Positions 18,685 to 35,496 of a stretch of DNA of 64,000 nt are shown piece after piece. A model generated the notes under the pieces. It was not told the origin of the DNA, made no database searches, and worked only from the letters and a program-made list of their open reading frames with translations. Position 1 is the stretch's first letter. Each line of letters starts with the position of its first letter. Position numbers and translations under genes: made by a program. Source of the stretch: Streptomyces sp. MP131-18 (GTDB taxonomy: Bacteria; Actinomycetota; Actinomycetes; Streptomycetales; Streptomycetaceae); the NCBI RefSeq assembly GCF_001984575.1, contig NZ_LZNS01000001.1, forward strand, positions 1-64,000, given 5' to 3'.

Positions 18685-20985
18685 TCAGCCCAGCAGCGTG
18701 CCGCCGCTGGCGTCGACGAAGGAGCCGGTGATCCAGCGGGCGTCCTCGCCGGCGAGGAACGCGACGACGTCGGCGATGTCCTCGGGCTCGCCGACGCGGT
18801 TGAACGCCGAGAGTCCCGCCATCTGTTCGACGGCCGCCGGGATGTCGAACGCCGGGTTGCTGTTGCGGGTGATGCCGGGCGCCACGGTGTTGACGGTGAT
18901 GCCGCGTGGTCCGAGGAGCTTGGCGAAGTGCAGGGCGAGCTGTTCGACCGCGCCCTTGGTCATGGCGTAGGCGATCTCGTCCGGGTTGGCGAAGTGGGTC
19001 AGCCCGGAGGAGATGTTGATGATGCGTCCGCCGTCGGGCATGTTGGCCAGGGCGCGCTGGATGAGGAAGAAGGGCGCTTTGGCGTTGACGGCCATGAGCG
19101 TGTCGAACGCTTCCGGCGTGGTGTCCTCGACGGAGAGGCCGCCCATGCGGCCCGCGTTGTTGATCAGGATGTGGAGGTCGGTGCTGCCGGTGCGCTCCTT
19201 GAGTCCTGCTTCGAGGCCGAGGAAGAGTTCGTGCACGTCGCCGGGCATGCCCAGCTCGGCTTGGATCGTGAACGCGCTGCCGCCCTCCCCCTCGATGGTC
19301 GTGACGGTCTCCTCGGCCGCGTCCCGGCCGGTGGCGTAGTGGACGGCGACGAGCGCGCCCTCGCGGGCCAGGCGGACGGCCGTGGCGCGTCCCATGCCGC
19401 GGCTTGATCCGGTGACAAGCGCGGTCTTTCCGGTGAGTTTGCCCATCGGGTTCCTCCCGTTCGTGCGGTCGGTGTGGCGGGTCGGGTTCGCGCTGTGCCT
19501 GCGGGGTGCGGTCCGCGGGGCGGCCGGGCCGAACCAGCGGTTCAGGGCCTCGGCCAGCCCGTGCGTCCCGTCGCCGGCCCATGCCACGTGCCCGTCGGGA
19601 CGTACCAGGACGGCGGGGGCGGCGGGCGGCGGGCCGGTTGCCGGGCCGCGGGCGGGGGTGATCCGGTCGGTGCGGCCGGCGGCGGCCCGGTGCAGGGCCG
19701 CGGCCCGTTCCTCGTCGCCGTCGAGGCTGAGCAGCAGCCCGCGGCCGGTGCGGAGCAGTTCCGCGGACGTGGTCGGCCGGCCGTCCGCGGCGAGGAGCGG
19801 GGTGGGCGGCAGGCGGGCGCCGAGCAGGGGGTGGCCGGGGCCGAGGTCGTAGCGGACGCCGAGGCCGGAGATCATTCCGGCCAGGTGGGCCCGGGCGGCC
19901 TCGTGCGCGGTGAGCTCGGCCATGACGGCTCGTACGGGCGCAACCTGCGGCCCGTCGAGCAGCAGCGTCGCCTGGGCGCGGATGTTGGCCAGGACGTGGG
20001 CGCCGACGGGGTGCCGTTCGGCGTGGTAGGTGTCCAGGAGTCCGTCGGGGGCGTGGCCGCGCAGGTGCGCGGCGAGCTTCCAGCCGAGGTTGACGGCGTC
20101 CTGGAGGCCGAGGTTGAGGGCTTGTCCGCCGATCGGCATTTGCCGGTGTGCGGCGTCGCCCGCGAGGAAGATGCGGCCGCTGCGGTAGGCGGCGGCCTGG
20201 CGGGAGGCGTCCCCGAACGAGTTGACCCACAGCGGGGTGCCTTCGGAGATGTCCTCGCCGGTGACGCGCCGCCAGGCGTCGGCCAGTTCGGCGAACGCCG
20301 GTTGTGCGGTGCGGGTGCGGGCCGGGGCGCCGAACTCGTGGACCATGACGCGGGTGACGCCGTCGCCGCGGCGGGCAGCGATGGCCAGGCCCCGTGCGAG
20401 GCGCTGGAAGCGGCGGTCGGGCACGTCGATGCCGGTCACGTCGGCCCGCAGGAGTTCGCGGGCGGCGTCCCGGCCGGGGAAGGCGATGCCGGCCAGGCTC
20501 CGCACGGTGCTTCGTTCGCCGTCGCAGCCCACGACGTAGCGGGCGCGCAGGCGCACCGGGCCGCGGGCGGTTGCGATCTCGGCCTGGACGTGGTCGCGGT
20601 GCGGATGCAGGCTCCGCAGCCGGTGCCCGCGGTGCGGCCGGGCTCCGAGCCCGGCCGCCCAGGTGCCGAGCAGTTCCTCGGTGCGGGTCTGGGGCACCTT
20701 CCACTGCCCGGGGTGGGAGCCGGGCAGGGTCAGGTCGAGGGGAATTCCGCCGAAGTGGCCGCGTGGCTCGGCCGGGACGGGGCCGAGCGGCGCGAGCAGG
20801 CCGCGGGCGTCCAGGATCTCCATGGTGCGCGCGTGGAGGGTGGAGGCCCGGGATTCGGTGGTGGGCCGCTCGCGCCGCTCGACGACGACGATGTCGGCGC
20901 CGCCCAGCCGGAGTTCGCCTGCGAGCATGAGGCCGACCGGGCCCGCGCCGACGACGAGGACGTCGGTATCGGGTGCGGCGCCCAT
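18685..20985 (-). CDS. pgaM: Angucycline oxygenase-ketoreductase fusion (PgaM/UrdM type)
   Basis: 766 residues. Residues ~1-500 are a flavoprotein hydroxylase of the PHBH group: GAGPVGLML for FAD, and GDAAHRQMPIGGQALN. Residues 514-766 are a short-chain dehydrogenase: TGSSRGMG, NNAGRMGG and the catalytic YAMTK. This is the layout of PgaM and UrdM, which perform the C-12b hydroxylation/dehydration step and stereoselective C-6 ketoreduction in gaudimycin and urdamycin pathways. Internal Met514 (19446) is preceded by a strong GGGAGGAA, so free reductase is probably also made. The start at 20985 lies one base after the aromatase stop. The symbol is by analogy. Confidence 0.9.
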   Translation of the reverse strand: MGAAPDTDVLVVGAGPVGLMLAGELRLGGADIVVVERRERPTTESRASTLHARTMEILDARGLLAPLGPVPAEPRGHFGGIPLDLTLPGSHPGQWKVPQTRTEELLGTWAAGLGARPHRGHRLRSLHPHRDHVQAEIATARGPVRLRARYVVGCDGERSTVRSLAGIAFPGRDAARELLRADVTGIDVPDRRFQRLARGLAIAARRGDGVTRVMVHEFGAPARTRTAQPAFAELADAWRRVTGEDISEGTPLWVNSFGDASRQAAAYRSGRIFLAGDAAHRQMPIGGQALNLGLQDAVNLGWKLAAHLRGHAPDGLLDTYHAERHPVGAHVLANIRAQATLLLDGPQVAPVRAVMAELTAHEAARAHLAGMISGLGVRYDLGPGHPLLGARLPPTPLLAADGRPTTSAELLRTGRGLLLSLDGDEERAAALHRAAAGRTDRITPARGPATGPPPAAPAVLVRPDGHVAWAGDGTHGLAEALNRWFGPAAPRTAPRRHSANPTRHTDRTNGRNPMGKLTGKTALVTGSSRGMGRATAVRLAREGALVAVHYATGRDAAEETVTTIEGEGGSAFTIQAELGMPGDVHELFLGLEAGLKERTGSTDLHILINNAGRMGGLSVEDTTPEAFDTLMAVNAKAPFFLIQRALANMPDGGRIINISSGLTHFANPDEIAYAMTKGAVEQLALHFAKLLGPRGITVNTVAPGITRNSNPAFDIPAAVEQMAGLSAFNRVGEPEDIADVVAFLAGEDARWITGSFVDASGGTLLG
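19446..19458 (-). promoter_or_regulatory. Internal ribosome-binding site and start for free reductase domain
   Basis: Within the fusion gene, GGGAGGAA (minus strand, 19458-19451) precedes an in-frame ATG (19446-19444) by four further bases. Translation from here gives a 253-residue SDR that begins exactly at the domain boundary (MGKLTGKTALVTGSS). Internal initiation of the reductase is known for PgaM. Confidence 0.8.
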
Positions 20986-20986
20986 C

Positions 20987-21931
20987 TCAGCGCTTGGCCT
21001 CGGCGTATTCCTTGGCGTGTCGGAGGGTGGCGCGGCTGTTGGTGCCGAGCGCGCCGCGCACGTACTCCTTCGCACGGGCGGCGTCCGCGTCCGGGCCGAG
21101 GACTGTGACGATGGCGTCGGTGTTGATGACGACGGTGTGCCGGGAGGTGGCGGCCACGCCCCGCGCGGTGTCCTCGAACGTCCACAGGCCGGTGTGCAGG
21201 GCCATCAGCGCGGGGAGCGTGACCTGCTTGTAGGCGATTTTGCGGTGGGGGAAGCACACGCGGTGGGATTCGGTGGTGTGCGTGGAGCCGTCCTTGGCTC
21301 GGGTCTCCATCCGCAGGGTCTGCAGGCCGGGGGACGGCTCCGCCAGGTGGACCTGTGCGACGTGCGGCAGCCGCTCGGACCAGCGGTCGGCCTCGTTGAC
21401 GAAGTCGTAGACGTCCTTGGCCGCTCCGTCGATGTGCACGGTGTCCTCGAAGGAGAAGGTGAGGTCCCGGGCCGCGTGGGCGAATTCGATGGTCTTCTTC
21501 AGCGCCGCCAGCTCGGAGCGCGAGTTGCGGTCGACGGCCCGGTCGATCCACTCGAGCGAGGCCGGGTCGTCGTCGATGGCCCGGTAGTCGTGCAGGAGGC
21601 GGATGCGGCTGGTGCCGGCGGGCAGTTCCTCGATGATCCATGTGCCGCCCATCGCGGCGACGGGCGGGGCGGAGACCTCCTGGCGGAAGCCGATGCGGCG
21701 GGTTGACTCGTCCAGGGTGCGGTGGGAGGTCCAGTTCTTGGGTTCGCCGTTGGCCGTGGCCCAGATTCGGATTCGTTCGTTCCGTTCGCTGCGCTCCACG
21801 TGGTCGACGAAGATGGCGGGGGGAAAGATTGCCGGCCAGTTCGCCACGTCGGCGATCAGGCGGTAGACGGCGGCGGCCGGGGCAGAAACGGTGATCTCGT
21901 GCTCGACCTCGCGCAGTGCGGACAGCGGCAT
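20987..21931 (-). CDS. Polyketide aromatase/cyclase (didomain, UrdL/JadD-like)
   Basis: 314 residues from ATG 21931, with GAGGAG upstream. Two START/Bet v1-like halves can be seen: residues ~1-150 begin with EHEITVSAPAAAVYRLIADVANWP and residues ~160-314 repeat the pattern with DTVHIDGAAKDVYDFVNEADRWSERLP. Didomain aromatases of this type act on C-9-reduced polyketides to close and aromatise the first ring. It sits between the ketoreductase and the oxygenase-reductase, as in angucycline clusters. Confidence 0.9.
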   Translation of the reverse strand: MPLSALREVEHEITVSAPAAAVYRLIADVANWPAIFPPAIFVDHVERSERNERIRIWATANGEPKNWTSHRTLDESTRRIGFRQEVSAPPVAAMGGTWIIEELPAGTSRIRLLHDYRAIDDDPASLEWIDRAVDRNSRSELAALKKTIEFAHAARDLTFSFEDTVHIDGAAKDVYDFVNEADRWSERLPHVAQVHLAEPSPGLQTLRMETRAKDGSTHTTESHRVCFPHRKIAYKQVTLPALMALHTGLWTFEDTARGVAATSRHTVVINTDAIVTVLGPDADAARAKEYVRGALGTNSRATLRHAKEYAEAKR

Positions 21932-21957
21932 GCTCGGTGCTCCTCGGTCGGTGGGGC

Positions 21958-22740
21958 TCAGAAATTGCCCAGGCCGCCGCAGACGTTCAGCGCCTGGGAG
22001 GTGAGGGACGCGGCGGTGTCGGAGGCCAGGTAGCCGACGAGGCCGGCGACTTCCTCGGGTGTGGAGTAGCGGCCCAGCGGGATCTTGGCGCGGAACCTGG
22101 TGAGGACCGCCGCCTCGTCGGTGTCCCAGGCCGCGGCGTAGCCCGCGCGCACGCGCTGGGCCATGGGGGTTTCGACGTATCCCGGACAGACCGCGTTGAC
22201 CGTGATGCCGGTGGGGGCCAGCTCGTTGCCGAGCGCTTTGGTGAAGCCGACGACTCCGTGCTTGGAGGCGGAGTAGGGGGCGCCGAGTACCACGCCCTGC
22301 TTGCCGGCGGTGGAGGCGATGTTGATGATGCGGCCGCGGCTCTTGAAGCGCATGCGGCCGGTGTTGAGGACTTCCCTGGTCATGCGGAAGACGCTGTTGA
22401 GGTTGGTGTCGATGACGTCGTGCCACAGGTCGTCGGCGAGGTCGGCCGTGACTCCCCCGCCGCTGCGGCCCGCGTTGTTGACGAGTACGTCGACGCTTCC
22501 GTGGCGGCCGACGGCCGCGCGGACGAACGCGTGGACGCTGTCGTCGTCGCGGACGTCGAGTTCCGAGCCGTCGGCGTCGATCCCCTCGGCGCGCAGCTGT
22601 TTGACGGTCGCGGTGACATTCTCGGCGGTGCGGGCGCCGAGGAAGACGGTGTGGGCCTGCCTGCCGAGGATGCGGGCGGTGGCCAGGCCGATGCCGCTGG
22701 TGGCACCGGTGACCAGGGCGAGGCGCGGGGCTTGGGGCAT
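21958..22740 (-). CDS. Polyketide C-9 ketoreductase (ActIII-type SDR)
   Basis: 260 residues. TGATSGIG is the NADPH-binding loop, NNAGRSGGG follows at about residue 90, and the catalytic Ser-Tyr-Lys is in IASTAGKQGVVLGAPYSASK. The LGRYSTPEEVAGLVGYLASD tail matches the actIII family. It reduces the C-9 ketone of the nascent decaketide, setting the folding for angucyclines. Twenty-six bases separate it from the aromatase gene. Confidence 0.92.
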   Translation of the reverse strand: MPQAPRLALVTGATSGIGLATARILGRQAHTVFLGARTAENVTATVKQLRAEGIDADGSELDVRDDDSVHAFVRAAVGRHGSVDVLVNNAGRSGGGVTADLADDLWHDVIDTNLNSVFRMTREVLNTGRMRFKSRGRIINIASTAGKQGVVLGAPYSASKHGVVGFTKALGNELAPTGITVNAVCPGYVETPMAQRVRAGYAAAWDTDEAAVLTRFRAKIPLGRYSTPEEVAGLVGYLASDTAASLTSQALNVCGGLGNF

Positions 22741-22784
22741 GGGAACTCCCAACGTCGGGGGCGGTGTTCTGCGTCCGGTCGCGG

Positions 22785-23048
22785 TCAGGCCGCGGCCGTG
22801 CCGATGTGCGTGTTGACGGCGTCGATGAGGCCGCGGGGGGTGGCGGCGTCGGCGAGGGCGGAGTCGTCCAGGGTGATGTCCCACTCCCGTTCGATGCGTC
22901 CCCCGGTCTCCAGGAGCGCCAGCGACTCGTAGCCGAGATCGGTGAACGGCGTGTCGAGGATGTCGGCGTCGAGGTCGACGCCCTCTTCGGTGCCGGCTCC
23001 TTCCAGGAGGATGCGTTTGAGGTCGTCCAGGGTGAATGCGGCAGGCAC
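22785..23048 (-). CDS. Acyl carrier protein of type II PKS
   Basis: 87 residues from a GTG at 23048, preceded by GGAGGAAG. The phosphopantetheine-bearing Ser42 is in DLGYESLALLE. It carries the growing polyketide between KS-alpha/KS-beta, ketoreductase and cyclases. Normal size and position directly after KS-beta. Confidence 0.95.
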   Translation of the reverse strand: MPAAFTLDDLKRILLEGAGTEEGVDLDADILDTPFTDLGYESLALLETGGRIEREWDITLDDSALADAATPRGLIDAVNTHIGTAAA

Positions 23049-23089
23049 GTGTCTTCCTCCGTGGTGTGTGGTGGGGCGGGCGGCGGCCG

Positions 23090-24319
23090 TCAGCGCGGGG
23101 CGCGCAGTACGGCGGCGGAGTTGAATCCGCCGTGGCCGCGGGCGACGACCAGCGCGCAGCGCAGCTCGGCGGCGCGGGGGCGGCCGGTGACCAGGTCCAG
23201 GCCGTGGGCCGGGTCGGGACCGGTGTTGACGGTGGGCGGGATGACTCCCTCGGTCAGGGCCAGCAGGGCGGTGGCGACATCGAGGGGCGCGGCGCCGGAG
23301 TAGAGGCGGCCGGTCATGGTCTTGGGCGCGGTGACCGGAACGCCGCGCTGGCCGAAGACGGCGCGCAGGGTCCGTGCCTCGTCCCGGTCGAGTGCGGGCA
23401 CGGCGGCGGCGTCGGCGAAGACGACGTCCACCTCGGCGGGCTCGGCGCCCGCATCGTCGAGGGCCAGTTCAATGGCGCGGCGCAGGCCGCTCTCCGCACC
23501 GCGGCCCGGGGCCGGGGCCGGGTCGAACGTGGCGGCACAGCCGTCGAGGGTGCCGTAGACGCGGGCGCCGCGGGCTTGTGCGGCCCGCGCGTCCTCAAGG
23601 ATGAGGATGGCCCCGCCCTCGCCGGGGACGTGCCCCGCGGCGTGCCGGTCGAAGGGGAGGTAGGCGCGTTCCGGCCGGTCGCTGCTGCTCAGGCGGCCGC
23701 TGGTCAGCAGGGCGGCCCAGCCCCAGGGGCAGATCGAGGCGTCGACGGCGCCGGAGACGACGAGCCCGGTGCCCTTGCGGACGGCGCGGCGGGCCTGCGC
23801 GAGGACGTCGAGTCCGCCGGCACCGTCGGCGACGAGTACGCCGCTGGGCCCTTTCATTCCGTTGCGTATGGAGATCTGGCCGCTGTTGACCGCGTAGAAC
23901 CAGGCGAACGACTGGTAGGCGCTCACATGCTGGCTGCCCAGGCTCCAGAGTTTGCGCAGTTCGTTCTGGCCGAATTCGAAGCCGCCGGAGGAGGCCGCGG
24001 TGATCACTCCCATGCCGAACGCGTCCCGCCGGGCCGGGTCGACGTCCGCGTCGGCGAGCGCCCAGTCCGCGGCGGCCAGGGCCAGGCGTGTCATGTGGTC
24101 GGTCTGCGGCAGCAGCCGGCTCGGCAGGTGCCGCGCCGCGTCGAACCCGGGCACCTCGCCGGCCAGCACGGCCGGGTAGCCCTCGGCGCGGAAGCGGGTG
24201 ACCGGGCCGATGCCGCTGGTCCCGGTGCGGATGGCGGCCCAGTAGGCGTCCTTGCCGAGGCCGTTGGGTGCGGCCACCCCGAGTCCGGTGACGGCGACGG
24301 TTTGTGTGGCGGCACTCAC
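23090..24319 (-). CDS. Ketosynthase beta / chain length factor
   Basis: 409 residues from a GTG at 24319 that overlaps the KS-alpha stop by four bases (GTGA), the usual coupling. The thiolase fold lacks the active-site cysteine, as expected for a chain length factor. The position normally taken by the decarboxylating glutamine is Gly166 here (VADGAGG where VAEQAGG is common). It pairs with KS-alpha to set chain length, presumably decaketide. The loss of the glutamine is unusual. Confidence 0.93.
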
Positions 24320-25587
24320 GCCGCGCTCCGCCGGGGGCGGGTCAGCACCATCGCGGACTGGAAGCCGCCGAAGCCGCTGCCGACGGTCAGCACGGTGTCG
24401 GTGCGGTGTCCGCGCGCGGTCAGCGGGACGTAGTCCAGGTCGCACTCCGGATCGGCGGCGTGCAGATTGGCGGTGGGGGGCACGGTGTGGTGCTCCATGG
24501 CCAGGGCGCAGGCGGCGATCTCGATGGAGCCGATGGCGCCGAGCGAATGCCCCACCATGGACTTGATGGAGCTGACCGGCACCCGGTGGGCGTGCTCCCC
24601 GAGGCTCCGCTTGAACGCGGCGGTCTCGTGCCGGTCGTTCTGCTTGGTGCCGGAGCCGTGGGCGTTGACGTAGTCGATGTCGCCGGGCGCGAGCCGCGCC
24701 TCGGCGAGGGCGGCACGGATGGCCTCGGCCATTTCGGCGCCGTCGGAGCGCAGTCCCGTCATGTGGTAGGCGTTGGACCGCGTGGCGTAGCCGGCGATCT
24801 CGGCGTAGACGTGGGCCCGGCGGCGGTCGGCCGACGCCAGCTCCTCCAGCACGAAGAACGCGGCGCCCTCGCCGAGCACGAAACCGTTACGGGAGGCGTC
24901 GAAGGGGCGCGAGGCGCGCCCCGGTTCCTCGGTGCGCGGCGTGGTCGCCTTGATCGCGTCGAAGCAGGCGAGGGTGATCGGGGAGATCGGCGCGTCGGAG
25001 GCGCCGGCCACCATCACGTCGGCGCTGCCCTCCCGGATCAGCTCGACGGCGTGGCCGACCGCGTCGATGCCGGAGGTGCAGCCGGTGGAGACGACGGCCA
25101 CCGGGCCCTGGGCGCCGGAGGTCCAGGCGACCTCGGCCGCGAAGGAACTGGGCACCAGAGCGTCGTAGAGGTGGGGCGGCGCGTAGCTGTGGTCCACCAG
25201 TTCCAGACGCCCGCCGTCGCTGACGACGCGGTACTCCCGGTCCAGGGTCATGGTGGCGCCGACGGCCGTGCCGACGACGGCGCCGGTGCGGCAGGGGTCG
25301 GTGCCGGCGTCGGCGATCCTGCTGTCGGTGAGCGCTTCCCTGGCGGCGACGACGGCCAGTTGGGCGGCCCGGTCCATGCGCCTGATCTCCTGGGGGCCGA
25401 GGCCGTGCTCCTCCGGGTCGAAGTCGATTTCGGCGGCCACCCGGGAGCGGAACGGCGACGGGTCGAAGAAGGTGATGCCGCGGGTCGCGGTGCGGCCCTC
25501 GCTCAGCAGGCTCCAGAACGGTTTCACGCCCACGCCGCCTGGGGCGACGACGCCGATGCCGGTGATGGCCACGCGCCGTCCGGTCAC
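24316..25587 (-). CDS. Ketosynthase alpha of type II PKS
   Basis: 423 residues from a GTG at 25587. The active-site Cys170 is in VSTGCTSG; the two catalytic histidines are in [11 protein letters not shown] and [20 protein letters not shown] is typical. It condenses malonyl units on the ACP with KS-beta. It overlaps the cyclase gene before it and KS-beta after it by four bases each, so the three are made in fixed ratio. Confidence 0.96.
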
Positions 25588-25913
25588 TGTCCGGCCTCCC
25601 AGGCGTAGAAGCGGGTGGCCATCGCGTCCTTGGGGGAACGCCAGGTCGCCGGGTCGTACGCCTGGACGTACGGCTTGAGGTCTTCGCTGATGCCGACGAA
25701 TCGGGGGTCGGTCCTGGCGTCCTGGATGCGTTCCCCGCCGTCGTTCTCGTCGAAGTCCTGGAGGTGGAAGTACAGGCCGCGGTAGAAGAACAGCTGGCGG
25801 CGGCGGGTGCCCATGCGGTGGGGCATCTCGGTGCCGTCGAAGGCGTCGAACAGCTCCGCGATCTGCCCGGCGGAGTCGGGTGCCAGCCGCGCCACGATGA
25901 GAGTGCTGTGCAT
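25584..25913 (-). CDS. TcmI-family polyketide cyclase (UrdF/JadI-like)
   Basis: 109 residues, the usual size. Begins [12 protein letters not shown] and has [23 protein letters not shown] and [17 protein letters not shown] (shown in part), typical of the SRPBCC-unrelated ferredoxin-like TcmI/PgaF cyclases that close the later rings and give the angular fourth ring. Positioned directly before KS-alpha, overlapping it by four bases, as in angucycline clusters. Confidence 0.9.
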
Positions 25914-25936: not shown

Positions 25937-27412
25937 TCAGGCGGCGGCCCGTGCGGGGCCGAACCACCGGGCGAGGGACGTAGGGAGGTCCTGATGGCTG
26001 CCGGGCGCGACCCAGGCGACGTGGCCGTCGGGCCGCAGCAGGACGGCGGAGGTGCGGGGGGCGCCGGCTGCGGGCTGCCGCGGCGCGGCCGTCACGACGT
26101 CGACACGGTCGTCCCAGCCGGCGGCGCGCCGGCGCAGGTGGGCGTTGTCCTCCAGGTCGAGGAGCACGCCACGGCCGCGGCGCAGGAGCGCGGTGCTGCG
26201 GGTGTCCCCGCGCGGCCCGGACAGTGGCAGGTCGGGCATGCGGCGGCCGAGGAGCGGGTGGCTGCCGCCGCCGACGTCGTAGCGGATCTCCAGGCCGGAG
26301 ACCATGGCGGCCAGGTGCCGGGAGACGTCCGGGTAGCGGATCAGTTCGGACAGGACGTCGCGCAGCGGCTGGACCTCGGCGCCGGAAAGGAAGAGGAGCC
26401 CTTGGGCGCGGGTGTTCATCAGCAGCCGCTCCCCGACCGGGTGCCGCTCGCCGTGGTAGGTGTCCAGGAGCCGTTCTTTGGCGCGTCCCCGCACGACGGC
26501 GGCGAGCTTCCACCCGAGGTTGACGGCGTCCTGGATGCTGACGTTCATGCCCTGGCCGCCGGCGGGCAGGTGGATGTGCGCGGCGTCGCCCGCGAGGAGG
26601 ACCCGGCCGCGCCGGTACTCGGTGACCTGCCGGGTGGCGTCGCCGAAGGAGCTGACCCAGACCGGTTCGCCGTGGGAGATGTCCTGGCCGGTGACGCGCT
26701 TCCAGCCGGCCACGACCTCCTCGTAGGAAGGGGAGTCCGTGCGGCGCTGCGGCGGGGTGCCGCGTTCGCACAGGATGAGGCGGGTGACGCCGCCCGGCAA
26801 GGGGCCGACCATCACCATGCCGGCCTCGTAACTCCTGCCGATCATGCGGGGTTCGAGGTCGAGGCCCTTGACGTCGGCGAGGAACATCTCAAGCGTGGCC
26901 GGGCTGCCGGGGAAGTCGAAACCTGCCGCTTTGCGCACCGTGCTGCGCCCGCCGTCGCACCCCACGAGGTAGCGGGTCGTCAGGCTGCGGGGGGTGTCTT
27001 CCGGGGTCTTGACCCGGAGGGTGACGTGGTCGTCGCCGTCGTCGAGGGAGAGCAGTTCGTGTCCGCGGCGCAGGTCGGCGCCCAGCTCACCCGCCCATGC
27101 TTCGAGGACGGCCTCGGTGGCCGACTGCGGAACGGACTTGGCCGCCTGGTGCGCGCCCGCCAGGACACCGAAGTCGACGGGCAGGCCGCCGAAGTGGCCG
27201 ACGTTGCTCGTCTCCACCTCGCCGAAGCGGCTCAGCAGGCCGCGCTGGTCGAAGACCTCCATGGTGCGGGCGGTGAAGCCGAGGCCGCGGGACTCGCCGG
27301 TGCGGTCGGGAAGCTTCTCCAGTACGACGACGTCCACGCCGGCCAGGCGCAGTTCGCCGGCGAGCATCAGCCCGGCGGGGCCGGCGCCCACGATTGTCAC
27401 GTCAGCGTCCAT
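25937..27412 (-). CDS. pgaE: FAD-dependent angucycline hydroxylase (PgaE/UrdE-like)
   Basis: 491 residues from ATG 27412, with AGGAGG upstream. FAD-binding [13 protein letters not shown] at the N-terminus, the DG motif in [12 protein letters not shown] near residue 155, and [16 protein letters not shown] near 280. PgaE and UrdE hydroxylate C-12 of the early angucyclinone. It is the first gene of the core operon. A C-terminal thioredoxin-like domain (~400-491) is normal for the group. The symbol is by analogy. Confidence 0.9.
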
Positions 27413-27581: not shown

Positions 27582-28220
27582 TCAGCGCGACACGGCGTCC
27601 GCCAGGAGGTACCGCTTGCCGCCTATTCCGCGCACACCGGGCATCGACAGGGCTTCGAAGCACTCCTTGGGCCGCTCGCTCTGCATGAAGCGTTCGTGGG
27701 CCTCCTCGTCGACCCACTCGGCCCAGTTGAGGACGCGCGTGCCGTCCTGGCTGAGGTGGAAGTGGGAGCCGACGAGGCCGGGGAACGGCGTGCCGAGCGG
27801 GCCGTCGAGCAGATTGTCCGCGGAGCGCCGCTGCCGGTCGCGGCCGTCCACGTCGAAGACGGGCGGAACGAGCAGGCCCGGGGTGCTGCCCGGTTCGAGA
27901 ACGCGCCCGCGGTACAGCGTGTAGCGCACGGGCTCGGTCGCGTCCGGGTCCTCCGCGCCGCGCCCGGCGTCGTGCGCGAAGGTGCGGTAGGCCGCGTCGG
28001 AGGTCCACTGCGCGTACGTCAGCACGTTCTCCGCCTCGGTGCAGGTGAAGACGTTGACGGACAGCATGCCCTCGGGGAGGGCACCGCGCCGGTAGGGGGC
28101 CAGGACGCGCTCGGTCTCGGCGCGCTGTGCCTCGGCGGAGCCGACGTACAGGGGGGTGACCAGCACGATCCCGGCGTCGGGGCGGCTGACGTCGGGGAAG
28201 GGGACCTTCGGGTGCGCCAT
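27582..28220 (-). CDS. Tandem antibiotic-biosynthesis-monooxygenase (ABM) domain protein
   Basis: 212 residues from ATG 28220, preceded by AAGGAG. Two ferredoxin-like ABM domains in tandem: residues ~15-110 (NVFTCTEAENVLTYAQW) and ~110-210 (SHFHLSQDGTRVLNWAEW). ABM-fold oxygenases act without a bound metal and include anthrone oxygenases; B-ring-opening enzymes of jadomycin and gilvocarcin have a related two-domain build with reduced flavin. A ring oxidation or cleavage step on the angucyclinone is possible. The same module is fused to the next upstream gene's flavoprotein. Confidence 0.8.
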   Translation of the reverse strand: MAHPKVPFPDVSRPDAGIVLVTPLYVGSAEAQRAETERVLAPYRRGALPEGMLSVNVFTCTEAENVLTYAQWTSDAAYRTFAHDAGRGAEDPDATEPVRYTLYRGRVLEPGSTPGLLVPPVFDVDGRDRQRRSADNLLDGPLGTPFPGLVGSHFHLSQDGTRVLNWAEWVDEEAHERFMQSERPKECFEALSMPGVRGIGGKRYLLADAVSR

Positions 28221-28250
28221 ATGCGGAATCTCCTTGTGAGACTGACTGAT

Positions 28251-28263
28251 TGACGCGACGTCA
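28251..28263. promoter_or_regulatory. Short perfect dyad upstream of the ABM gene
   Basis: TGACG-CGA-CGTCA is a perfect inverted repeat located 31 bases before the ABM gene start. A second small hairpin (28308-28313 with 28319-28324) lies between it and the fusion gene's stop. The dyad could bind a cluster regulator; the hairpin could be a terminator. Confidence 0.35.
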
Positions 28264-28342
28264 GAACTTGGGTGCGGCGAAGTGCCTGGCGTCTTCCCGA
28301 GGTTAACAACCGTGGGTGACGGTTTGGTGGCTCGGCGCCGGG

Positions 28343-30457
28343 TCAGCGGCCGAGGCCGCGGTACAGGTGGTAGCGCTTGAATCCGATCGGTCTGACCCCC
28401 GGCGTCTCGTGGGTGGCCTTGAGGTTGCCGTGCCGGCTGGCGCCGTCGAGGAACGCCAGATGCGCCTCGTCCGTCGTCCACTCGGCGAAATTGGTCACGC
28501 GGCTGCCGTCGAGGCTGAGGTGGAAATGGGAGGCGATCAGGCCGCGGCACTCGTCCGCCGGCGCGCGCCGGAGCCGGGCGGCGATGGAGTCCGCGATGTG
28601 CCGTTGGCGTTCGGCACCGTCCACGTCGAACATGGCGGTGACGAGTGCGCCGGGCGGCGCTGCCGAAGGGGCGAGCACCACGCTGCGGTACAGCCGGTAC
28701 TCGACGGGCTCGGTGCGGGCCGGTCCGGGCGGAAGCGCGCGCAGGAACGGCCGGTAGGCCGCCGGGTCGGCGCACTGCGCGTACGTCAGTACGTTCTTCC
28801 CGTCCGCGTCGAGGTAGCAGGCGAGGCCGAGGACGCCCGTCGGCCAGGGCCCGGCCGCCCACGCGGCCAGGACCTCGTCGAGCTCGGCGCGGCCGCGTTC
28901 CGCGTCCCCCGCGTACCAGTGGGCGGTGAACACCGCGTGCGCGTCGGGGCGCGGGATGTCCGGCGGCGTGGTGCCGGCCGGGGCGGGCAGCGACGTGGGG
29001 GCGCCGAGGTGGCGGCCCAGCGCCGCTTCCAGCACGTCCCCGGAACCGGCCGTCCAGGCCACGTAGCCGTCCGGTCGCAGGAGGAGCGCCGCGGTGCCGG
29101 GCGCGGGGCCCGCGGGCCGGGCGCGCACCACGTCCAGTCGGTCGGCCCAGCGGCGCGCGGTACGCCGGGGCCCGTCGTCGCCGTCGTCGCCGTCGAGGAG
29201 GAGGAGCACGCCGCGGGCGGTGTGGAGCAGGTCCGTGGTGGTGGTCCTCGAGCCGTCGGGCAGAACGAGTCCGGTCTTCGGCATGCGCCGGCCGAGCAGC
29301 GGGTGCTCGCCCGGGCCCACGTCGTAGCGGATGTCGAGTCCGCTGATCAGTCCGGCCAGCCGGCGGGCGGCCTCCCGGCCGGCGAACACGCCGGTGAGCA
29401 CCTCGCGCAGCGGCTGCATCTCCTCGCCGCCGAGGAACAGTGTCGCCTGGGCGCGGGTGGTGCGGACCAGTTCGGCGCCGACGGGGTGTCGTTCGGCGTG
29501 GTAGGCATCGAGCACGCCGTCGGCGGCGCGGCCCGTCGCGACGGCGCCCAGCCGCCAGCCGAGGGCGACGGCGTCCTGGATGCTGACGTTCATGCCCTGG
29601 CCGCCGGCCGGAAGGTGCACGTGCGCGGCGTCGCCGGCCAGCAGGACGCGTCCGCGGCGGTAGGTGTCGGCCTGCCGCGCCGCGTCGCCGAAGGAGCTGA
29701 CCCACAGTGGGGTGGCCGAGGAGATGTCGTCGCCGCTGACCCGCTTCCAGGCGTCGGCAACCTCGGCGTAGTCGGGCGGGCCGGAGCGCGGGCGGGGGGC
29801 CCGGCCGTGCTCGTGCACGACGATGCGCATCACGCCGTCGCCGAGCGGGGCGGCCAGGAGCATGCCCCGCGGGCGGCGCGCGCCCGACCACAGCGGGCCG
29901 AGGTCAAGGCCCCGCACGTCGGCGAGCAGCAGTTCGGCGGTGGCGTCCGTGCCGGGGAAGCCGAAGCCGCAGGAGCGGCGCACCAGGCTGCGGCCGCCGT
30001 CGCAGCCCACCAGGTAGGGAGCGGTCAGCCGCACGGTGCCGTCCGGGGTACGGACGGTGGCCCCGACGCACTCGCCGTCGTCGACGTCGACGGAGAGGAC
30101 GCGGTGCCCGTGGCGGATGTCCGCGCCCAGCTCCCGGGCCCACTGCGCCAGCACCTGGACGGTGCGCGCCTGCGATACGCCGGTGACGGCGGCGTGCGTG
30201 CCGTCGCCGACCGCGAAGTCGACGGGGACGCTTCCGAAGTGGCCGCCCGGCGCCCGTTCCAACGTCCCGAACCGCTCCAGCAGTCCGCGCTGGTCGAAGA
30301 CTTCGAGCGTGCGGGCGGTGAAGCCCATACCGCGGGACTCCGTGCTCGGCCCGTCCTCCTTCTCGAGAACGGTGACACGTGCGCCGGCCAGCCGCAGTTC
30401 CGCGGCGAGCACGAGTCCCGCGGGGCCCGCGCCGACGACGATCACGTCGCTGTCCAT
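28343..30457 (-). CDS. FAD monooxygenase fused to tandem ABM domains
   Basis: 704 residues from ATG 30457 (GGAGG/GGAG upstream; an in-frame GTG four codons earlier lies within that site). Residues ~1-495 are a PgaE-like flavoprotein: [41 protein letters not shown]. Residues ~500-704 are a two-domain ABM module closely matching the separate ABM protein (SHFHLSLDGSRVTNFAEW). The join follows the flavoprotein's thioredoxin-like domain, and no stop or start intervenes. I do not recall a characterised angucycline enzyme with this layout. Likely performs two successive oxidations on one scaffold. Confidence 0.88.
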   Translation of the reverse strand: MDSDVIVVGAGPAGLVLAAELRLAGARVTVLEKEDGPSTESRGMGFTARTLEVFDQRGLLERFGTLERAPGGHFGSVPVDFAVGDGTHAAVTGVSQARTVQVLAQWARELGADIRHGHRVLSVDVDDGECVGATVRTPDGTVRLTAPYLVGCDGGRSLVRRSCGFGFPGTDATAELLLADVRGLDLGPLWSGARRPRGMLLAAPLGDGVMRIVVHEHGRAPRPRSGPPDYAEVADAWKRVSGDDISSATPLWVSSFGDAARQADTYRRGRVLLAGDAAHVHLPAGGQGMNVSIQDAVALGWRLGAVATGRAADGVLDAYHAERHPVGAELVRTTRAQATLFLGGEEMQPLREVLTGVFAGREAARRLAGLISGLDIRYDVGPGEHPLLGRRMPKTGLVLPDGSRTTTTDLLHTARGVLLLLDGDDGDDGPRRTARRWADRLDVVRARPAGPAPGTAALLLRPDGYVAWTAGSGDVLEAALGRHLGAPTSLPAPAGTTPPDIPRPDAHAVFTAHWYAGDAERGRAELDEVLAAWAAGPWPTGVLGLACYLDADGKNVLTYAQCADPAAYRPFLRALPPGPARTEPVEYRLYRSVVLAPSAAPPGALVTAMFDVDGAERQRHIADSIAARLRRAPADECRGLIASHFHLSLDGSRVTNFAEWTTDEAHLAFLDGASRHGNLKATHETPGVRPIGFKRYHLYRGLGR

Positions 30458-30487: not shown

Positions 30488-30706
30488 TCAGGTGGTGCCG
30501 GCTCCGGGGCCGGTCACGGTGATGGCACCGGCCGGGCAGCACTCCGCTATCTCCCTGAGCCGTTCCGGTCCGGCCGCCCGGTCGCCCGCGGGGCGGGCGA
30601 CGGCGTAACCCTCGTCGGTCAGCGAGAACACGGCGGGCGCCATGGCCTCGCACAGTCCCGTGCCGTAGCAGAGGGTCCGGTCCACGCGGACGGCGGCCCG
30701 CATCAC
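30488..30706 (-). CDS. [3Fe-4S] ferredoxin
   Basis: 72 residues from a GTG at 30706 (or the ATG one codon on). Cysteines in CYGTGLCEAMAP and CCPAGAI fit the single-cluster P450-type ferredoxin. Its start overlaps the P450 stop by 4 bases (GTGA), so it is the dedicated electron donor of that P450. The reductase is not in the window. Confidence 0.9.
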   Translation of the reverse strand: MMRAAVRVDRTLCYGTGLCEAMAPAVFSLTDEGYAVARPAGDRAAGPERLREIAECCPAGAITVTGPGAGTT

Positions 30707-31938
30707 GCGTGCCGGGAGGTCGACGTGGTGACCGGCAGTGAGGTGAGGCGCCTGATGGCCCAGTTCTCGATGTACCGCACCCTGTCCCTGGGCACGGCGA
30801 GCGCCAGGGTGGGGAACCGGGCGACCAGGGCGGGAATGGCGATCTCGCCCTCCATCCTGGCCAGCGCCGCGCCGATGCAGTTGTGCAGTCCGTGGCCGAA
30901 GGCGACGTGCCGCGGGCTCTCGGCGGTGATGTTGAGGCGGTCGGGCTCGGTGAAGCGCCGCGGGTCGCGGTTGGCCGCCAGCAGCCCGGCGATGACGGGG
31001 GCGCCCGCGGGCAGCCGGGCGCCCGCGAGCTCGACCGGCTCCGTGGTGACGCGGAACAGGGCGGTGCTGAGGGCGCCCTCGTAGCGCAGCAGTTCTTCGA
31101 CGGCGCTCCTGGCGAGTTCCGGCTGGGCACGGAGCCGGTCGCCCTGCCCTGGGTTGTCCAGCAGCGCGAGGGCGGCGTTCCCGATGAAGCCGCGCACGGT
31201 GTCGCTGCCGCCCATGATGAACGCGGCGACCAGGCCGGTCAGTTCGTCGCCGTCCAGGCGCGTTCCCTCGTCGGTGGCGTCGATGAGTGCCGAGGTGAGG
31301 TCGTCGGCCGGGCGGCTGCGCTTGTCGTCGATGAGCTCGGCGGCGTAGGCGCAGATCCTGCCGAACGCGGCGGGCACGCGGTCCATCAGCGCGGGGTCGG
31401 AGGGGAACGCCTCGTTGAGCGCGGTGACCAGCTCACGGTGCCGCTCGATGCGGAAGCCGAGGATGGCGCCCAGCACGCCCGCGGAGACCTCGCCGGCGTA
31501 GTCGTCCATCACGTCGAAGGCGCCGCGGCGCTCGCAGTCGTCCAGCGCGCGTTCGACGACCGCGTGTACGGTGCCGCGCCACTGTTCCACCCGGCGGGTG
31601 GTGAACGCGCTCATCGCGAGGCGGCGCAGCCGGGGGTGGTCCGGCGGGTCGATGACGGCGATGCCGCGTTCGAGGATGGTGCCCGCGGCACTGACCAGCC
31701 CTGCCGCGCGGAACTCGGCGTTGCCCCAGGTGGCGCCTTCGGCGCTGAACCTGGAGTCGGCGAGCACGGCCCTGACGTCCTCGTAGCGGGTCACCATCCA
31801 GGTGCGGACGTCGCCCACGGGGAAGGGGAATTCGTGCACGGGGGCGTGGTCCCGCAGCCAGGCGAGGGTGGGGAAAGGATCTTGATAGTACGCGGGGGTG
31901 AAGAGCGCCGGGATGTCCGGTGCCACGGTTGACGTCAT
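30703..31938 (-). CDS. Cytochrome P450 of the angucycline cluster
   Basis: 411 residues. The heme loop FGHGLHNCIGAALAR has Cys354; the I-helix is AAFIMGGSDTVRGF and the ExxR motif is EELLR. Cys is present, so it is a working P450 and not the degenerate partner protein some glycosyltransferases need. Coupled to the ferredoxin downstream and to the SCO6745-like gene upstream (4-base overlap). Presumably hydroxylates or couples the aglycone or sugar. Confidence 0.92.
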   Translation of the reverse strand: MTSTVAPDIPALFTPAYYQDPFPTLAWLRDHAPVHEFPFPVGDVRTWMVTRYEDVRAVLADSRFSAEGATWGNAEFRAAGLVSAAGTILERGIAVIDPPDHPRLRRLAMSAFTTRRVEQWRGTVHAVVERALDDCERRGAFDVMDDYAGEVSAGVLGAILGFRIERHRELVTALNEAFPSDPALMDRVPAAFGRICAYAAELIDDKRSRPADDLTSALIDATDEGTRLDGDELTGLVAAFIMGGSDTVRGFIGNAALALLDNPGQGDRLRAQPELARSAVEELLRYEGALSTALFRVTTEPVELAGARLPAGAPVIAGLLAANRDPRRFTEPDRLNITAESPRHVAFGHGLHNCIGAALARMEGEIAIPALVARFPTLALAVPRDRVRYIENWAIRRLTSLPVTTSTSRHA

Positions 31939-32864
31939 GTCCTGTCCTTTCTCGTTGCGGTGCCCAGACGGTTCCACCGCTCGGTGGCGGGCGCGAAGAA
32001 GCCGCGCAGCGGGCCGGGGAACGCTCCGGCATCCGCCGCCCTGTTGACCAGGCCGTGGACGAAGGCCGCCAGTTCGCCGGTGCGGGCGGTGCCGAGGGCC
32101 GCGTAGGGCCCCCGGTCGAGCCGGCCGGTTTCGCGTTCGACGGTGTCCCGCAGTGCGGTGCCGCGTGCGGTCAGGCGCCCGTCGACGTCGACGAGACCCC
32201 GGTCCGCCAGCCGTTCGGCGGCGGCCGACCACTCTTCCTGCCGCCAGCCCCGCTGGGGCATGACGATGTCCTTGGACATGCCGTGCCCGCTCGCGCAGTC
32301 GATGACCAGGGCCTCGATGCCGGTGAGTTCGGCGTGGCCGAGGACGGCGATGTGCCCGTCGCCGCGGTGCTCCCGCAGCAGCGTGGCGGCGTGCCAGAGG
32401 GCTGTGTGGGGTTCCTCCGGTGCTTCGACGGCGGTGTTCGCGGCGTACAGGGGCCGGCCGGGCAGGGCGCCGGCGGTGGCGGCCGCGGCGGCGAGCCGGG
32501 CTGCGTCCGCCATGGCGCGGGAGGTGGTGATCTCCTTGCCGATCAGGCGTTCCAGTGCCCGGCCGATGGCCTTCTGGCGTGCCGCGACCGCCTGCCGCGG
32601 GGTGATGTGCCCCCACAGGGCGGGCAGGCGGGCGGCGATGAGGCCGGGCGCGAAGGCGTTGAACGCCGCGGTCACCAGCTCGGGCCCGGCCGCGCCCAGG
32701 GGGGAGGCCCGGCCGGCGAGGTAGATGCTCGTGTGGTCGTCGATGCCGAAGGTTTCGAGTTCGCCGGCGAGGTCGGGGGTGAAGTAGAGGAGTGAGTGCA
32801 GGGAGTTGAGTGCCTGCGCGCAGCGGCGTGCGGCGGCGGTGGCGTCGTTCGGCGTCGGATGCAT
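31935..32864 (-). CDS. SCO6745-family protein with C-terminal winged-helix-like part
   Basis: 309 residues. The family, as I recall it, is an actinobacterial group of about 290 residues of unknown biochemical role; features are LHSLLYFTPDLAGELETFGI at the start, ALWHAATLLREHRGDGH mid-way, and a MarR-like wing (WSAAAERLADRGLVDVDGRLT) near residues 225-250. Stop overlaps the P450 start by four bases, so it belongs to the tailoring operon. A regulatory or scaffolding role cannot be told from sequence. Confidence 0.65.
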   Translation of the reverse strand: MHPTPNDATAAARRCAQALNSLHSLLYFTPDLAGELETFGIDDHTSIYLAGRASPLGAAGPELVTAAFNAFAPGLIAARLPALWGHITPRQAVAARQKAIGRALERLIGKEITTSRAMADAARLAAAAATAGALPGRPLYAANTAVEAPEEPHTALWHAATLLREHRGDGHIAVLGHAELTGIEALVIDCASGHGMSKDIVMPQRGWRQEEWSAAAERLADRGLVDVDGRLTARGTALRDTVERETGRLDRGPYAALGTARTGELAAFVHGLVNRAADAGAFPGPLRGFFAPATERWNRLGTATRKDRT

Positions 32865-32987: not shown

Positions 32988-34271
32988 TCAGTGGTTCTGC
33001 GCGGTGCGGTGATGCGCGGTCAGCCGCTCCAGTGCGGGCACGATCTCCGGCGGCGAGGGAGCGGCCAGCCGGTCGGCCTTGAGTCGGGCGGCGCCCTCGC
33101 CGAAGGCGGGCTCGTCGAGGACGCGGACGAGCTGGCGGCGCAGCTCGCGCGGGGTGAGGCCCTGCGGGTCGACCAGCGGTCCGGCGCCGCGCAGGGCCGC
33201 GTAGCGGGCCGCGACCCGCTCGTCCCAGGTGGGGACGGGCAGGATGACCTGGGGGACCCCGTGGGTGGCCGCGACGGAGAAGGTGCCCCAGCCGCCGTGG
33301 TGGACGATGGCGGCGCACGAGGGCAGCAGCTGGTTGAGGGGGACGAAGTCCACCGCGCGCACGTTCTCGGGCAGCGGGCCGATGCCGGTGAGCTGGGCCC
33401 GGTTGAGCGTGGCGACGACCTCGATGTCGAGACCGGCGGCGGTCTCCAGCGTCTCTTCGAGGGGGAAGCCCGTGTCCTTCCCGAACAGGGCGCGCGAGCT
33501 GACGCCGAGAGTGAGGCAGACGCGGGGGCGGGCCGGCGGTTCGCGCAGCCAGTCCGGCAGGACGGCGGCCTCGTTGTAGGGGACCCACCGCAGGGGAACG
33601 GTGCGGGTGTCCAGTGGCAGCCGGGCGGCCTGCGGGACCAGGTCGAGGCTCCACTGGCCGAGGATCAGGTCTTCGCCGAAGTCGAGGTGGTGGCGTTCGA
33701 GCAGCGGGGTCAGCCACCGCGCCATGGGGTCGCGGGCGGCGGACCGGCCGCTCACCTTCTCCCAGCCCCAGCCCATCTTGTCCTGGCCCCACAGGATGCG
33801 GGCGTGGGCGGCTCCGGTCACCCTGGCGGCCACCGCGGCGGGCAGGCACAGCGGGTCCCACAGCACGAGGTCGGGCCGCCAGGAGCGGGTGAACCCGATC
33901 AGCTCGGCGACCATGCCCTTGTCCGGGTCCCCGAGCGGGTAGCACTGGCCGATGATCGCCATGAGGCGGGCCTGTAACTGCTCCCAGTCCCCCGGACCGC
34001 TGCCCACGACGTCGAGGGCGAAGGCGTCGGGCGGGATGTCGAGCCGGCTGCCCTCCTCCTCGGTCCGGTCCTCCTGCTGGGCGACCACCGTGTCCCCCAC
34101 CGGGACGGCGATGAGACCGGCGCCGGTGACCGTTGCGGCCATGTCGTCCGACCCCATGCCGGGGTGACCCACCACGCACACCTCGTGGCCCGCGCTCTGC
34201 AGAGCCCAGGCGAGCGGTATGACGGGGTACAGGTGCGACGTCGACGGGAACGTCGCGATCATCACGCGCAT
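32988..34271 (-). CDS. GT1-family glycosyltransferase
   Basis: 427 residues from ATG 34271. N-terminal acceptor lobe begins MRVMIATFPSTSHLYPVIPL; the donor lobe has the nucleotide-sugar signature IVHHGGWGTFSVAATHGVPQV and a later WDERVAARY. This is the fold of macrolide and aromatic-polyketide deoxysugar transferases. With the aminosugar N-methyltransferase next to it, the donor is probably a dTDP-aminodeoxysugar and the acceptor the angucyclinone. It is 34 bases after that methyltransferase. Confidence 0.9.
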   Translation of the reverse strand: MRVMIATFPSTSHLYPVIPLAWALQSAGHEVCVVGHPGMGSDDMAATVTGAGLIAVPVGDTVVAQQEDRTEEEGSRLDIPPDAFALDVVGSGPGDWEQLQARLMAIIGQCYPLGDPDKGMVAELIGFTRSWRPDLVLWDPLCLPAAVAARVTGAAHARILWGQDKMGWGWEKVSGRSAARDPMARWLTPLLERHHLDFGEDLILGQWSLDLVPQAARLPLDTRTVPLRWVPYNEAAVLPDWLREPPARPRVCLTLGVSSRALFGKDTGFPLEETLETAAGLDIEVVATLNRAQLTGIGPLPENVRAVDFVPLNQLLPSCAAIVHHGGWGTFSVAATHGVPQVILPVPTWDERVAARYAALRGAGPLVDPQGLTPRELRRQLVRVLDEPAFGEGAARLKADRLAAPSPPEIVPALERLTAHHRTAQNH

Positions 34272-34305
34272 GTCGTCTCCTCCTCTGCCCACGGGCGGAC
34301 GTGCC

Positions 34306-35046
34306 TCACCCGCGGGTCCCGATGAACATGCCGCGGCCGTTGGGGCCGCCCTCCTGGAACTCGGCTTCGACGCCCGCGCGCGCGAATCCGGCAAGGTACT
34401 CCTCGCGCGAGAACAACGAATGGATCTCGGTCTCGGTGAAGTCCCGGATGCCCTGCGCATTGGCGACGGTGTAACGGACGGTCATCCGGCTCCTCCCGCC
34501 CTCCCTGACGGAGTGGGACACGCGGCTGATGACGTGGCCCCGTTCGTGGGTCACGGCTCCGGAGACGAATCCGTCGAGGAATTTCTCGGGGAACCACCAG
34601 GGCTCCGCAATGACGACTCCGCCCGGATTGACGTGCCGCACGAGGCTCGCGATGGCCTCGTGGAGCTGCCCGACCGACGTCATGTAGCCGAGCGAGAAGC
34701 ACATGCACGTGACGACGTCGAAGCGCTGCCCCAGGTCGAAGTCGCGCATGTCACCGGCGTGAATGGTGACGCCCGGAAGTTTCCGTTGCGCCAGCTCCCG
34801 CATTCCGGCGGAGAGTTCGAGGCCCGCGACCGTGGTGAAGCGTTCACGGAAACGCCGCAGATGCTCCCCCGTTCCGCAGGCCACGTCGAGCACGGAGTCG
34901 GCTCCGGGGCGTTTTGCCACGGCGATGTCCGCGATCGAGTCGGCTTCCGCGGCCCAGTCACGGCCTCGTCCGGAGTGGATCATGTCGTAGATGTCGGCGT
35001 GCTCTCGGCTGTAGGCCATTGATTCCACGGCCGGGTCGACGGTCAT
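34306..35046 (-). CDS. dTDP-aminosugar N,N-dimethyltransferase (TylM1/DesVI-like)
   Basis: 246 residues. YDMIHSGRGRDWAAEA at the start, the SAM motif LDVACGTGEHLRRF, GDMRDFDLG, EPWWFPEKFLDGFVSG and GGPNGRGMFIG together match the DesVI/TylM1 group that dimethylates the 3-amino group of dTDP-deoxysugars. It predicts a dimethylamino sugar on the product. The aminotransferase and dehydratases for such a sugar are not in this window. Confidence 0.88.
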   Translation of the reverse strand: MTVDPAVESMAYSREHADIYDMIHSGRGRDWAAEADSIADIAVAKRPGADSVLDVACGTGEHLRRFRERFTTVAGLELSAGMRELAQRKLPGVTIHAGDMRDFDLGQRFDVVTCMCFSLGYMTSVGQLHEAIASLVRHVNPGGVVIAEPWWFPEKFLDGFVSGAVTHERGHVISRVSHSVREGGRSRMTVRYTVANAQGIRDFTETEIHSLFSREEYLAGFARAGVEAEFQEGGPNGRGMFIGTRG

Positions 35047-35453: not shown

Positions 35454-35496
35454 GCCCGCCTGAGGGGCCGGCGCCGGCCCGGCCCCTCAGGCGGGC
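35454..35496. terminator. Strong 18-bp hairpin at the end of the rmlA-like gene
   Basis: A perfect 18-bp stem (35454-35471 with 35479-35496) and 7-base loop. It contains the TGA stop of the thymidylyltransferase (35489-35487), so the gene's last codons are part of the stem. Confidence 0.85.

Follow-up and report, generated by a model that had tools for sequence, protein, structure and literature searches.

In the lug (lugdunomycin) cluster, LugOI oxidises C12 and LugOII reduces C6, and the ABM proteins named there are LugOIII and LugOV, which are 30% identical to each other (PMC10728087). Deletion of LugOIII halts the pathway after C6 reduction, and the protein is proposed from mutants to be a C6a-C12a epoxidase. 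LugOV is proposed to stabilise the epoxide and to lead to C-ring cleavage; the same account describes the route from LugOV to C-ring opening after the epoxide as unresolved and calls HrbF a direct homologue of LugOV (PMC10728087). The rubiginone paper tabulates RubM1 as a homologue of HrbF and gives RubD3 and RubM1, with lengths of 221 and 228 amino acids, together with their gene order (PMC8487521).

Two other groups of enzymes are relevant. In vitro, the PgaE-like FlsO1 performs C12 hydroxylation, 6a,12a-epoxidation and a subsequent Baeyer-Villiger oxidation (PMC9474520). Members of the AlpJ family work without a cofactor on the hydroquinone CR1, the product of JadH/AlpG, and need reduced flavin when supplied with the quinone, to which CR1 converts spontaneously in air; the AlpJ monomer has been likened to the ActVA-Orf6 dimer (PMC11181247).

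The window analysed in this study comprises 64,000 nucleotides of Streptomyces sp. MP131-18 (contig NZ_LZNS01000001.1, positions 1 to 64,000, forward strand) and contains a gene in which a PgaE-type flavoenzyme and a tandem ABM module are encoded in one chain. The gene appears to be a genuine and rare fusion of two known kinds of enzyme rather than a new kind.

The fusion gene and its genomic context

Based on translation, Pfam and comparison with relatives, the fusion gene (28343..30457, minus strand) was found to be a single frame of 704 residues plus stop codon, which encodes a PgaE-type FAD monooxygenase followed by a tandem ABM module. It starts with ATG, preceded by GGAGGTGGAG. The flavin (FMO) half covers residues 1-488 (28994..30457, minus strand; motifs, Pfam and tree) and is followed by a join region of about residues 489-500 (28958..28993, minus strand), in which no stop codon, Shine-Dalgarno sequence or ATG remains. 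ABM half-domain 1 spans about residues 501-594 (28676..28957, minus strand; alignment and model), and half-domain 2, which falls in the RubD3 group, about residues 603-704 (28346..28651, minus strand; alignment, tree and model).

The GC content at third codon positions stays between 0.90 and 1.00 over the join (residues 441-565). Within residues 471-520, translation could start internally only at the GTG codons 475 and 509, neither of which has a clear ribosome site. Given the even third-position GC and the lack of a clear internal start, the gene reads as one coding frame. In the full-length model, residues 491-507 form a low-confidence linker (pLDDT below 50), which suggests a flexible tether between the flavin and ABM halves, although the underlying alignment is imperfect. 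In all 11 ABM rows inspected, it misplaced about 60 residues per row, and for this reason the relative placement of the two halves in that model was left unused. A 769-aa frame (27582-29891) would extend upstream beyond the small ABM gene and across the fusion gene, but is spurious in this part, with a third-position GC of 0.57.

All genes listed in the following are located on the minus strand. Conserved neighbours on one side of the fusion gene encode a ferredoxin (30488..30703), a cytochrome P450 (30703..31938, Pfam p450 E 8.5e-22) and an HTH_67 family protein (31935..32864), followed by an EryCIII-like glycosyltransferase and a SAM methyltransferase (32988..35046). On the other side lie a separate tandem ABM gene (27582..28220, 212 aa, assigned by Pfam and tree to a group of ABMs other than that of the fused module) and a PgaE/BexE-type monooxygenase gene (25937..27412), whose product has PgaE as best PDB match (778 bits) and is probably LugOI-like. 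Next come an angucycline-type type II PKS core with cyclase, KS-alpha, chain-length factor, ACP, ketoreductase and aromatase/cyclase genes (20987..25913) and a gene for an FMO-SDR fusion of PgaM/UrdM/LugOII build (18685..20985). The gene order of the PKS core is the same as that annotated in locus L131. Judged by its likeness to the table of the rubiginone cluster, the MP131-18 cluster is an angucycline-type set, and its gene content thus supports the setting that the initial annotation had assumed for the fusion. No product name was found for the sister clusters.

A TDP-glucose synthase-like gene (35487-36550, minus strand) is split over frames, with the nucleotidyl transferase part at 35825-36550 and the C-terminal part at 35487-35873; it is either a broken sugar gene or affected by base-call errors. 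The distance between the methyltransferase gene and this gene is about 0.4 kb in MP131-18 (35047-35486) and about 2.5 kb in S. tailanensis (L039:271-2751), which points to a possible loss of sugar genes in MP131-18.

Characteristics of the flavin half

The flavin half features Pfam FAD_binding_3 at residues 3-333 (E 3.6e-82) and Rng_hyd_C at residues 385-487, and its sequence matches PgaE over the whole length, with 544 bits for PgaE, 542 for CabE and 530 for the BexE entry 4x4j. With both domains and the full-length PgaE match, it is a PgaE-type group A flavoprotein monooxygenase. BexE and PgaE also rank first in the structure comparison, where the identity to PgaE-type enzymes is 55-56% in the structure alignment; the corresponding value for FlsO1 is 51-52%. 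The motifs GxGxxG, CDGGRS and GDAAHVHLP are retained.

In the tree, which does not have PgaE itself among its rows, the flavin half belongs to a distinct subfamily of 14 rows, next to the PgaE/LugOI type. This separate clade and the closer match of the neighbouring gene product (25937-27412) to PgaE (778 vs 544 bits) led us to reject the flavin half as the PgaE/LugOI orthologue proper.

Characteristics of the ABM half

The whole fusion protein yields no Pfam ABM match at E values up to 1, and the ABM half (about residues 490-704) alone reaches 12 bits against PF03992 (E 0.24), which misses the curated cut-off of 23.1. The free-standing sister from L039 also stays under this cut-off (17 bits), and RubD3 is over it (29.5 bits). 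The C-terminal part is nevertheless identified as a tandem ABM module by its 46% identity (residues 490-704) to the protein of the neighbouring gene 27582-28220, by its position in the 44-row group of RubD3 (see below) and by its AlphaFold model. The model (pLDDT 94.6) has two ferredoxin-like units, and its structural matches include PenE (9kdp; Z 19.4, rmsd 2.7, 198 residues) and the 'anthrone oxidase-like' entry 5f9p (Z 18.7, rmsd 2.7, 197 residues), which we take to be AlpJ. Half-domain 2 aligns with ActVA-Orf6 (1lq9) with a Z of 12.3 and an rmsd of 2.3 over 107 residues. As modelled, the module resembles an ActVA-Orf6 dimer contained in a single chain. Together with the 704-residue translation and the tree, these results confirm the earlier statement that one frame joins a PgaE-like enzyme to two ABM domains.

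With a profile of the ABM family, ActVA-Orf6 is the top match (E 2e-17); 5f9p and 9lsd follow at 1.3e-7 each and PenE, whose entry is named anthrone monooxygenase, at 8e-7. The site residues of ActVA-Orf6 are presumably numbered Asn62 and Trp66. Carrying over the alignment of the neighbouring ABM protein to ActVA-Orf6 places Asn656 and Trp660 of half-domain 2 at these positions, so that the ABM half has both the paired ferredoxin-like units and the Asn/Trp pair of ActVA-Orf6. Half-domain 1 has Thr and Cys instead and is therefore probably not catalytic; its Trp place is occupied by Cys, Trp, Ala or Ser among the relatives, with Cys in several free-standing ones. It is likely from these comparisons that each module has one catalytic site, located in half-domain 2, and that half-domain 1 is degenerate.

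The Cys in half-domain 1, the Pfam E value of 0.24 and the end branch of the ABM half, which is the longest of its 15-row subclade (0.37, next 0.31), would also fit a non-catalytic docking or substrate-shuttle partner tethered to the flavoenzyme. We regard this as very unlikely, as the ABM half has all 27 invariant columns of a 17-row alignment, including the half-domain 2 Asn and Trp, and its pairwise dN/dS values against three relatives are 0.45-0.61. The values for the flavin half against three relatives are 0.27-0.29. With all of these values below 1, neither half looks dead.

Phylogeny of the ABM modules

The ABM tree was calculated with 129 modules and midpoint-rooted; AlpJ, JadG and GilOII are not among its rows. 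RubD3 and RubM1 were recognised as L061:9944-10609 and L061:10704-11390 by the strain (CB02414), the exact lengths and the gene order. The fused ABM module belongs to a 15-row subclade (100/93) within a 44-row group (100/100) that includes RubD3 and is hence of RubD3 type. The neighbouring module 27582-28220 falls in a separate 9-row group (100/98), and a third group of 21 rows (100/100) contains RubM1. Since the latter excludes both MP131-18 modules, a LugOV/HrbF-type identity was rejected for either of them. The Pfam E value of RubM1 obtained in this analysis, 2.2e-4, is similar to the 3.8e-4 reported for LugOV (PMC10728087). With RubM1 as the homologue of HrbF and LugOV, and with two ABM proteins named for the lug cluster in the available account, RubD3 would by elimination be the counterpart of LugOIII. 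Through RubD3 and RubM1 we thus infer that the fused ABM half is of LugOIII type.

Another ABM reaction, either quinone formation of the anthrone type or an AlpJ-like cleavage of the B ring, could be performed by the ABM half, given the retained Asn and Trp of half-domain 2 and a profile that finds ActVA-Orf6 first and then 5f9p, 9lsd and PenE. The grouping with RubD3 of LugOV-containing clusters, in a tree without AlpJ, JadG and GilOII, argues against such a reaction, which we consider quite unlikely.

The initial annotation had pointed to near-identical motifs in the fused module and the neighbouring gene 27582-28220 and had concluded that duplication and fusion took place. That the neighbour encodes a tandem ABM module alone holds true in the light of its translation and a Pfam ABM match (E 3.4e-8). 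The quoted motifs are present as well; they are residues conserved throughout the family. A fusion of adjacent genes is upheld, whereas the duplication is not: at 46% identity and with positions in different, well-supported groups of the tree, the fused module was rejected as a copy of the neighbouring ABM gene. Because each of the two groups has its own orthologues in the sister clusters, the divergence of the modules predates the fusion.

In two LugOV/HrbF-type modules (L061:10704-11390 and L054:17134-17835) the Asn of half-domain 2 is replaced by Ile or Ser, a loss that may bear on the odd role of LugOV. The tree rows L089-L118 belong to a wide ABM family common in the genus, which was found in 206 of 392 genomes, often at 35-40% identity and in frames of about 250 codons.

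Relatives with separate genes and search for further fusions

A scan of one genome each for 84,980 species yielded 309 ABM-module relatives, the best 80 of which were used together with a search of 392 genomes of the genus. In this set, the flavoenzyme subfamily was found beside a fused-type ABM in 14 loci including MP131-18, and in all 13 others the two are separate adjacent genes. There the flavoenzyme gene ends with TGA just past the conserved C-terminus, followed by 21-193 nt and an ATG (12 loci) or GTG (one locus); three of the 13 seem to be strains already represented, with zero-length branches in the flavoenzyme tree. The genes are also separate, with a TGA ending the flavoenzyme ahead of the ABM gene, in L121, in L122, which by its contig number appears to be the L040 genome (S. 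benahoarensis) again, and in the plasmid locus L131 (Streptomyces sp. Mut1). For the flavin half as well as for the ABM half, L039 (S. tailanensis) and L010 are the nearest relatives, and the sister clusters share the gene order of MP131-18. The shared closest relatives and the separate genes elsewhere indicate that adjacent genes fused in the MP131-18 lineage. Judged from these sequences, the fusion looks recent and the two-gene adjacency older.

The fusion is present in the assembly. As a singleton among its relatives, with the TDP-glucose synthase-like gene 35487-36550 split over frames nearby and indel errors in the vicinity therefore possible, it could be an assembly or sequencing artefact that joins two genes. 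However, stop codon, spacer and start are all lost in MP131-18, which is no simple frameshift; the 86- and 107-nt spacers that the nearest sisters have are entirely missing rather than frame-shifted, codon usage is smooth over the join and the assembly consists of 10 contigs. An artefact is hence extremely improbable.

When 133 distinct ABM modules were checked for upstream-joined coding, only MP131-18 and L099 were flagged; three of the 133 are located within 180 nt of the locus end and can hardly be judged. L099 was rejected as a second fusion because its ABM is joined to a phosphofructokinase stretch and not to a flavoenzyme. Its frame (L099:8933-10693) leads from PFK (Pfam E 3.5e-68) to an ABM module that belongs to another group and may be the read-through of a truncated gene. 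Further candidates were discarded due to non-coding base composition of the long open frames (L019 and L029), a TGA between the two parts (L122) or an upstream transporter in another phase (L125, genome G614). A junction search in 394 genomes of the family returned 12 matches outside the MP131-18 genome that start ahead of the join. Eleven of them were rejected from their lengths, as frames of at most 330 codons cannot accommodate the two parts; the remaining one, G614 (L125), was rejected after its sequence had been read. No second flavoenzyme-ABM fusion was thus found in the loci, genomes and literature (titles and abstract beginnings) searched, in agreement with the earlier remark that no characterised angucycline enzyme of such build is known.

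Among the relatives, the sister cluster L131 (NZ_CP120998.1 277179-313799) is carried by a linear plasmid (330 kb) in Streptomyces sp. Mut1, and three more plasmid records (H2-H4) carry a like module at 55-56% identity. At the place of the sisters' second ABM gene, S. benahoarensis has what by eye appear to be pieces of an acyl-CoA carboxylase gene (L040:9880-10652).

Distribution of the flavoenzyme subfamily and LugOV/HrbF-type ABMs

For 37 loci with flanks of up to 10 kb, some shorter, score thresholds distinguished 12 fused-type loci, 24 RubD3-type loci and one unclear case (L064). The flavoenzyme only was found in nine loci, a LugOV-type gene only in 20, neither in eight and both in none. 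All nine flavoenzymes are located in the 12 fused-type loci and all 20 LugOV-type genes in the 24 RubD3-type loci. The naive probability of zero overlap is 2e-4, which ignores kinship; the split follows the ABM tree and may thus represent one historical event.

In a whole-genome check of 16 genomes, the flavoenzyme was present at 72-74% identity in four, and the other 12 had nothing above 59%. The subfamily is absent from the RubD3-type loci, including nine such genomes searched whole (counting L064). A search for LugOV-type genes with E values up to 1e-20 detected both positive controls (L061 and L054) and no such gene in 16 other genomes, 12 of which are fused-type; weak matches in G701 (34%) and G703 (33%) have the coordinates of their own ABM modules. 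The MP131-18 genome likewise has no LugOV-type gene beyond its two ABM modules.

Three of the 12 fused-type loci (L041, L045 and L048) lack the flavoenzyme and also LugOV, and five of the 25 other loci lack LugOV within the stretch examined. L053, L064 and L065 have neither partner in the whole-genome check. The three fused-type loci and the five others indicate that ABMs of this kind can be present without either partner, which counts against a simple replacement of one by the other.

Proposed function

The sequences establish the fusion in this assembly, its split state in relatives, the group membership, intact flavoenzyme motifs and one conserved ABM site per module. With somewhat less than even confidence, we favour a bifunctional angucyclinone oxidase, in which the ABM half would epoxidise C6a-C12a and the flavin half would act next in the same region. 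The fusion itself suggests that the halves work sequentially on the same molecule. Beforehand, the separate PgaE/LugOI-type enzyme would oxidise C12 and the FMO-SDR enzyme would reduce C6. Using no bound cofactor, the ABM half would then form the epoxide at C6a-C12a, after which the attached flavin half would carry out the next flavin-peroxide oxidation nearby, either a hydroxylation or an FlsO1-like Baeyer-Villiger opening of the C ring. The flavin half would perhaps fill the place that LugOV/HrbF has in lugdunomycin-type clusters, and, owing to the tether, an unstable intermediate may stay near the second active site. In this sharpened form, as a LugOIII-type epoxidation plus a flavin step, the two-step oxidation put forward in the initial annotation, which might lead to ring cleavage, is plausible.

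A stricter version, in which one polypeptide opens the C ring by cofactor-free ABM epoxidation and a subsequent Baeyer-Villiger-type step, the flavoenzyme subfamily having replaced LugOV, is rather doubtful. If true, the fusion would identify the missing partner of LugOIII-type epoxidases in clusters for which no product name was found.

The halves could also work in the reverse order, with a hydroxylated angucyclinone in hydroquinone form passed from the flavin half to the ABM half for oxygen activation, as from AlpG/JadH to AlpJ/JadG. This order is in line with the cofactor-free use of the JadH/AlpG hydroquinone CR1 by the AlpJ family (PMC11181247). The ABM model matches 5f9p (Z 18.7) and PenE (Z 19.4) over about 198 residues, and the flavin half, with Pro-Val where PgaE has Pro-Ile and the variant 4icy Gln-Phe, retains the Pro at this altered position, a feature considered for a possible C12/C12b hydroxylase activity. 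On the other hand, the cluster already contains a closer PgaE relative for C12 oxidation (25937-27412; 778 vs 544 bits), and the RubD3-type loci lack the flavoenzyme subfamily. We consider the reverse order somewhat unlikely.

Since a natural fusion is evidence that its halves act together, it nominates the flavoenzyme subfamily as partner of LugOIII-type ABMs where a cluster has no LugOV. So far only one such fusion has been found, and it may be a neutral accident. Its value is that of a pointer to enzymes acting together around LugOIII-type epoxidation, and it provides a single chain in which ABM and flavin oxygenases can be assayed together or apart.

Comparison with known systems

RubD3, and presumably also LugOIII and TacS, resemble the fused ABM half in belonging to one 44-row group, in their type II PKS surroundings and in the Asn-x-Ala-Glu-Trp site. 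In contrast to the fused half, RubD3-type ABMs are free-standing in the loci examined, and 20 of the 24 RubD3-type loci have a LugOV-type ABM nearby, whereas the MP131-18 genome is without any. AlpJ, JadG and GilOII are likened here by description: they cleave the B ring, act on the product of a flavoenzyme and have a monomer resembling the ActVA-Orf6 dimer (PMC11181247). AlpJ and JadG are separate from their flavoenzymes AlpG and JadH, while the MP131-18 halves share one chain.

On the flavoenzyme side, PgaE, CabE and BexE align with the flavin half over the full length, but the latter forms a separate subfamily, and those enzymes are free-standing. FlsO1 is PgaE-like as is the flavin half; however, one flavin site does all steps in FlsO1, which has no ABM part as described (PMC9474520). 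In build, PgaM, UrdM and LugOII are the closest parallel, as they likewise combine a PgaE-like domain with another tailoring enzyme in a single chain, and one such protein is encoded in the same cluster (18685-20985). Their fusion partner is a reductase (SDR), whereas that of the MP131-18 flavoenzyme is an ABM oxygenase.
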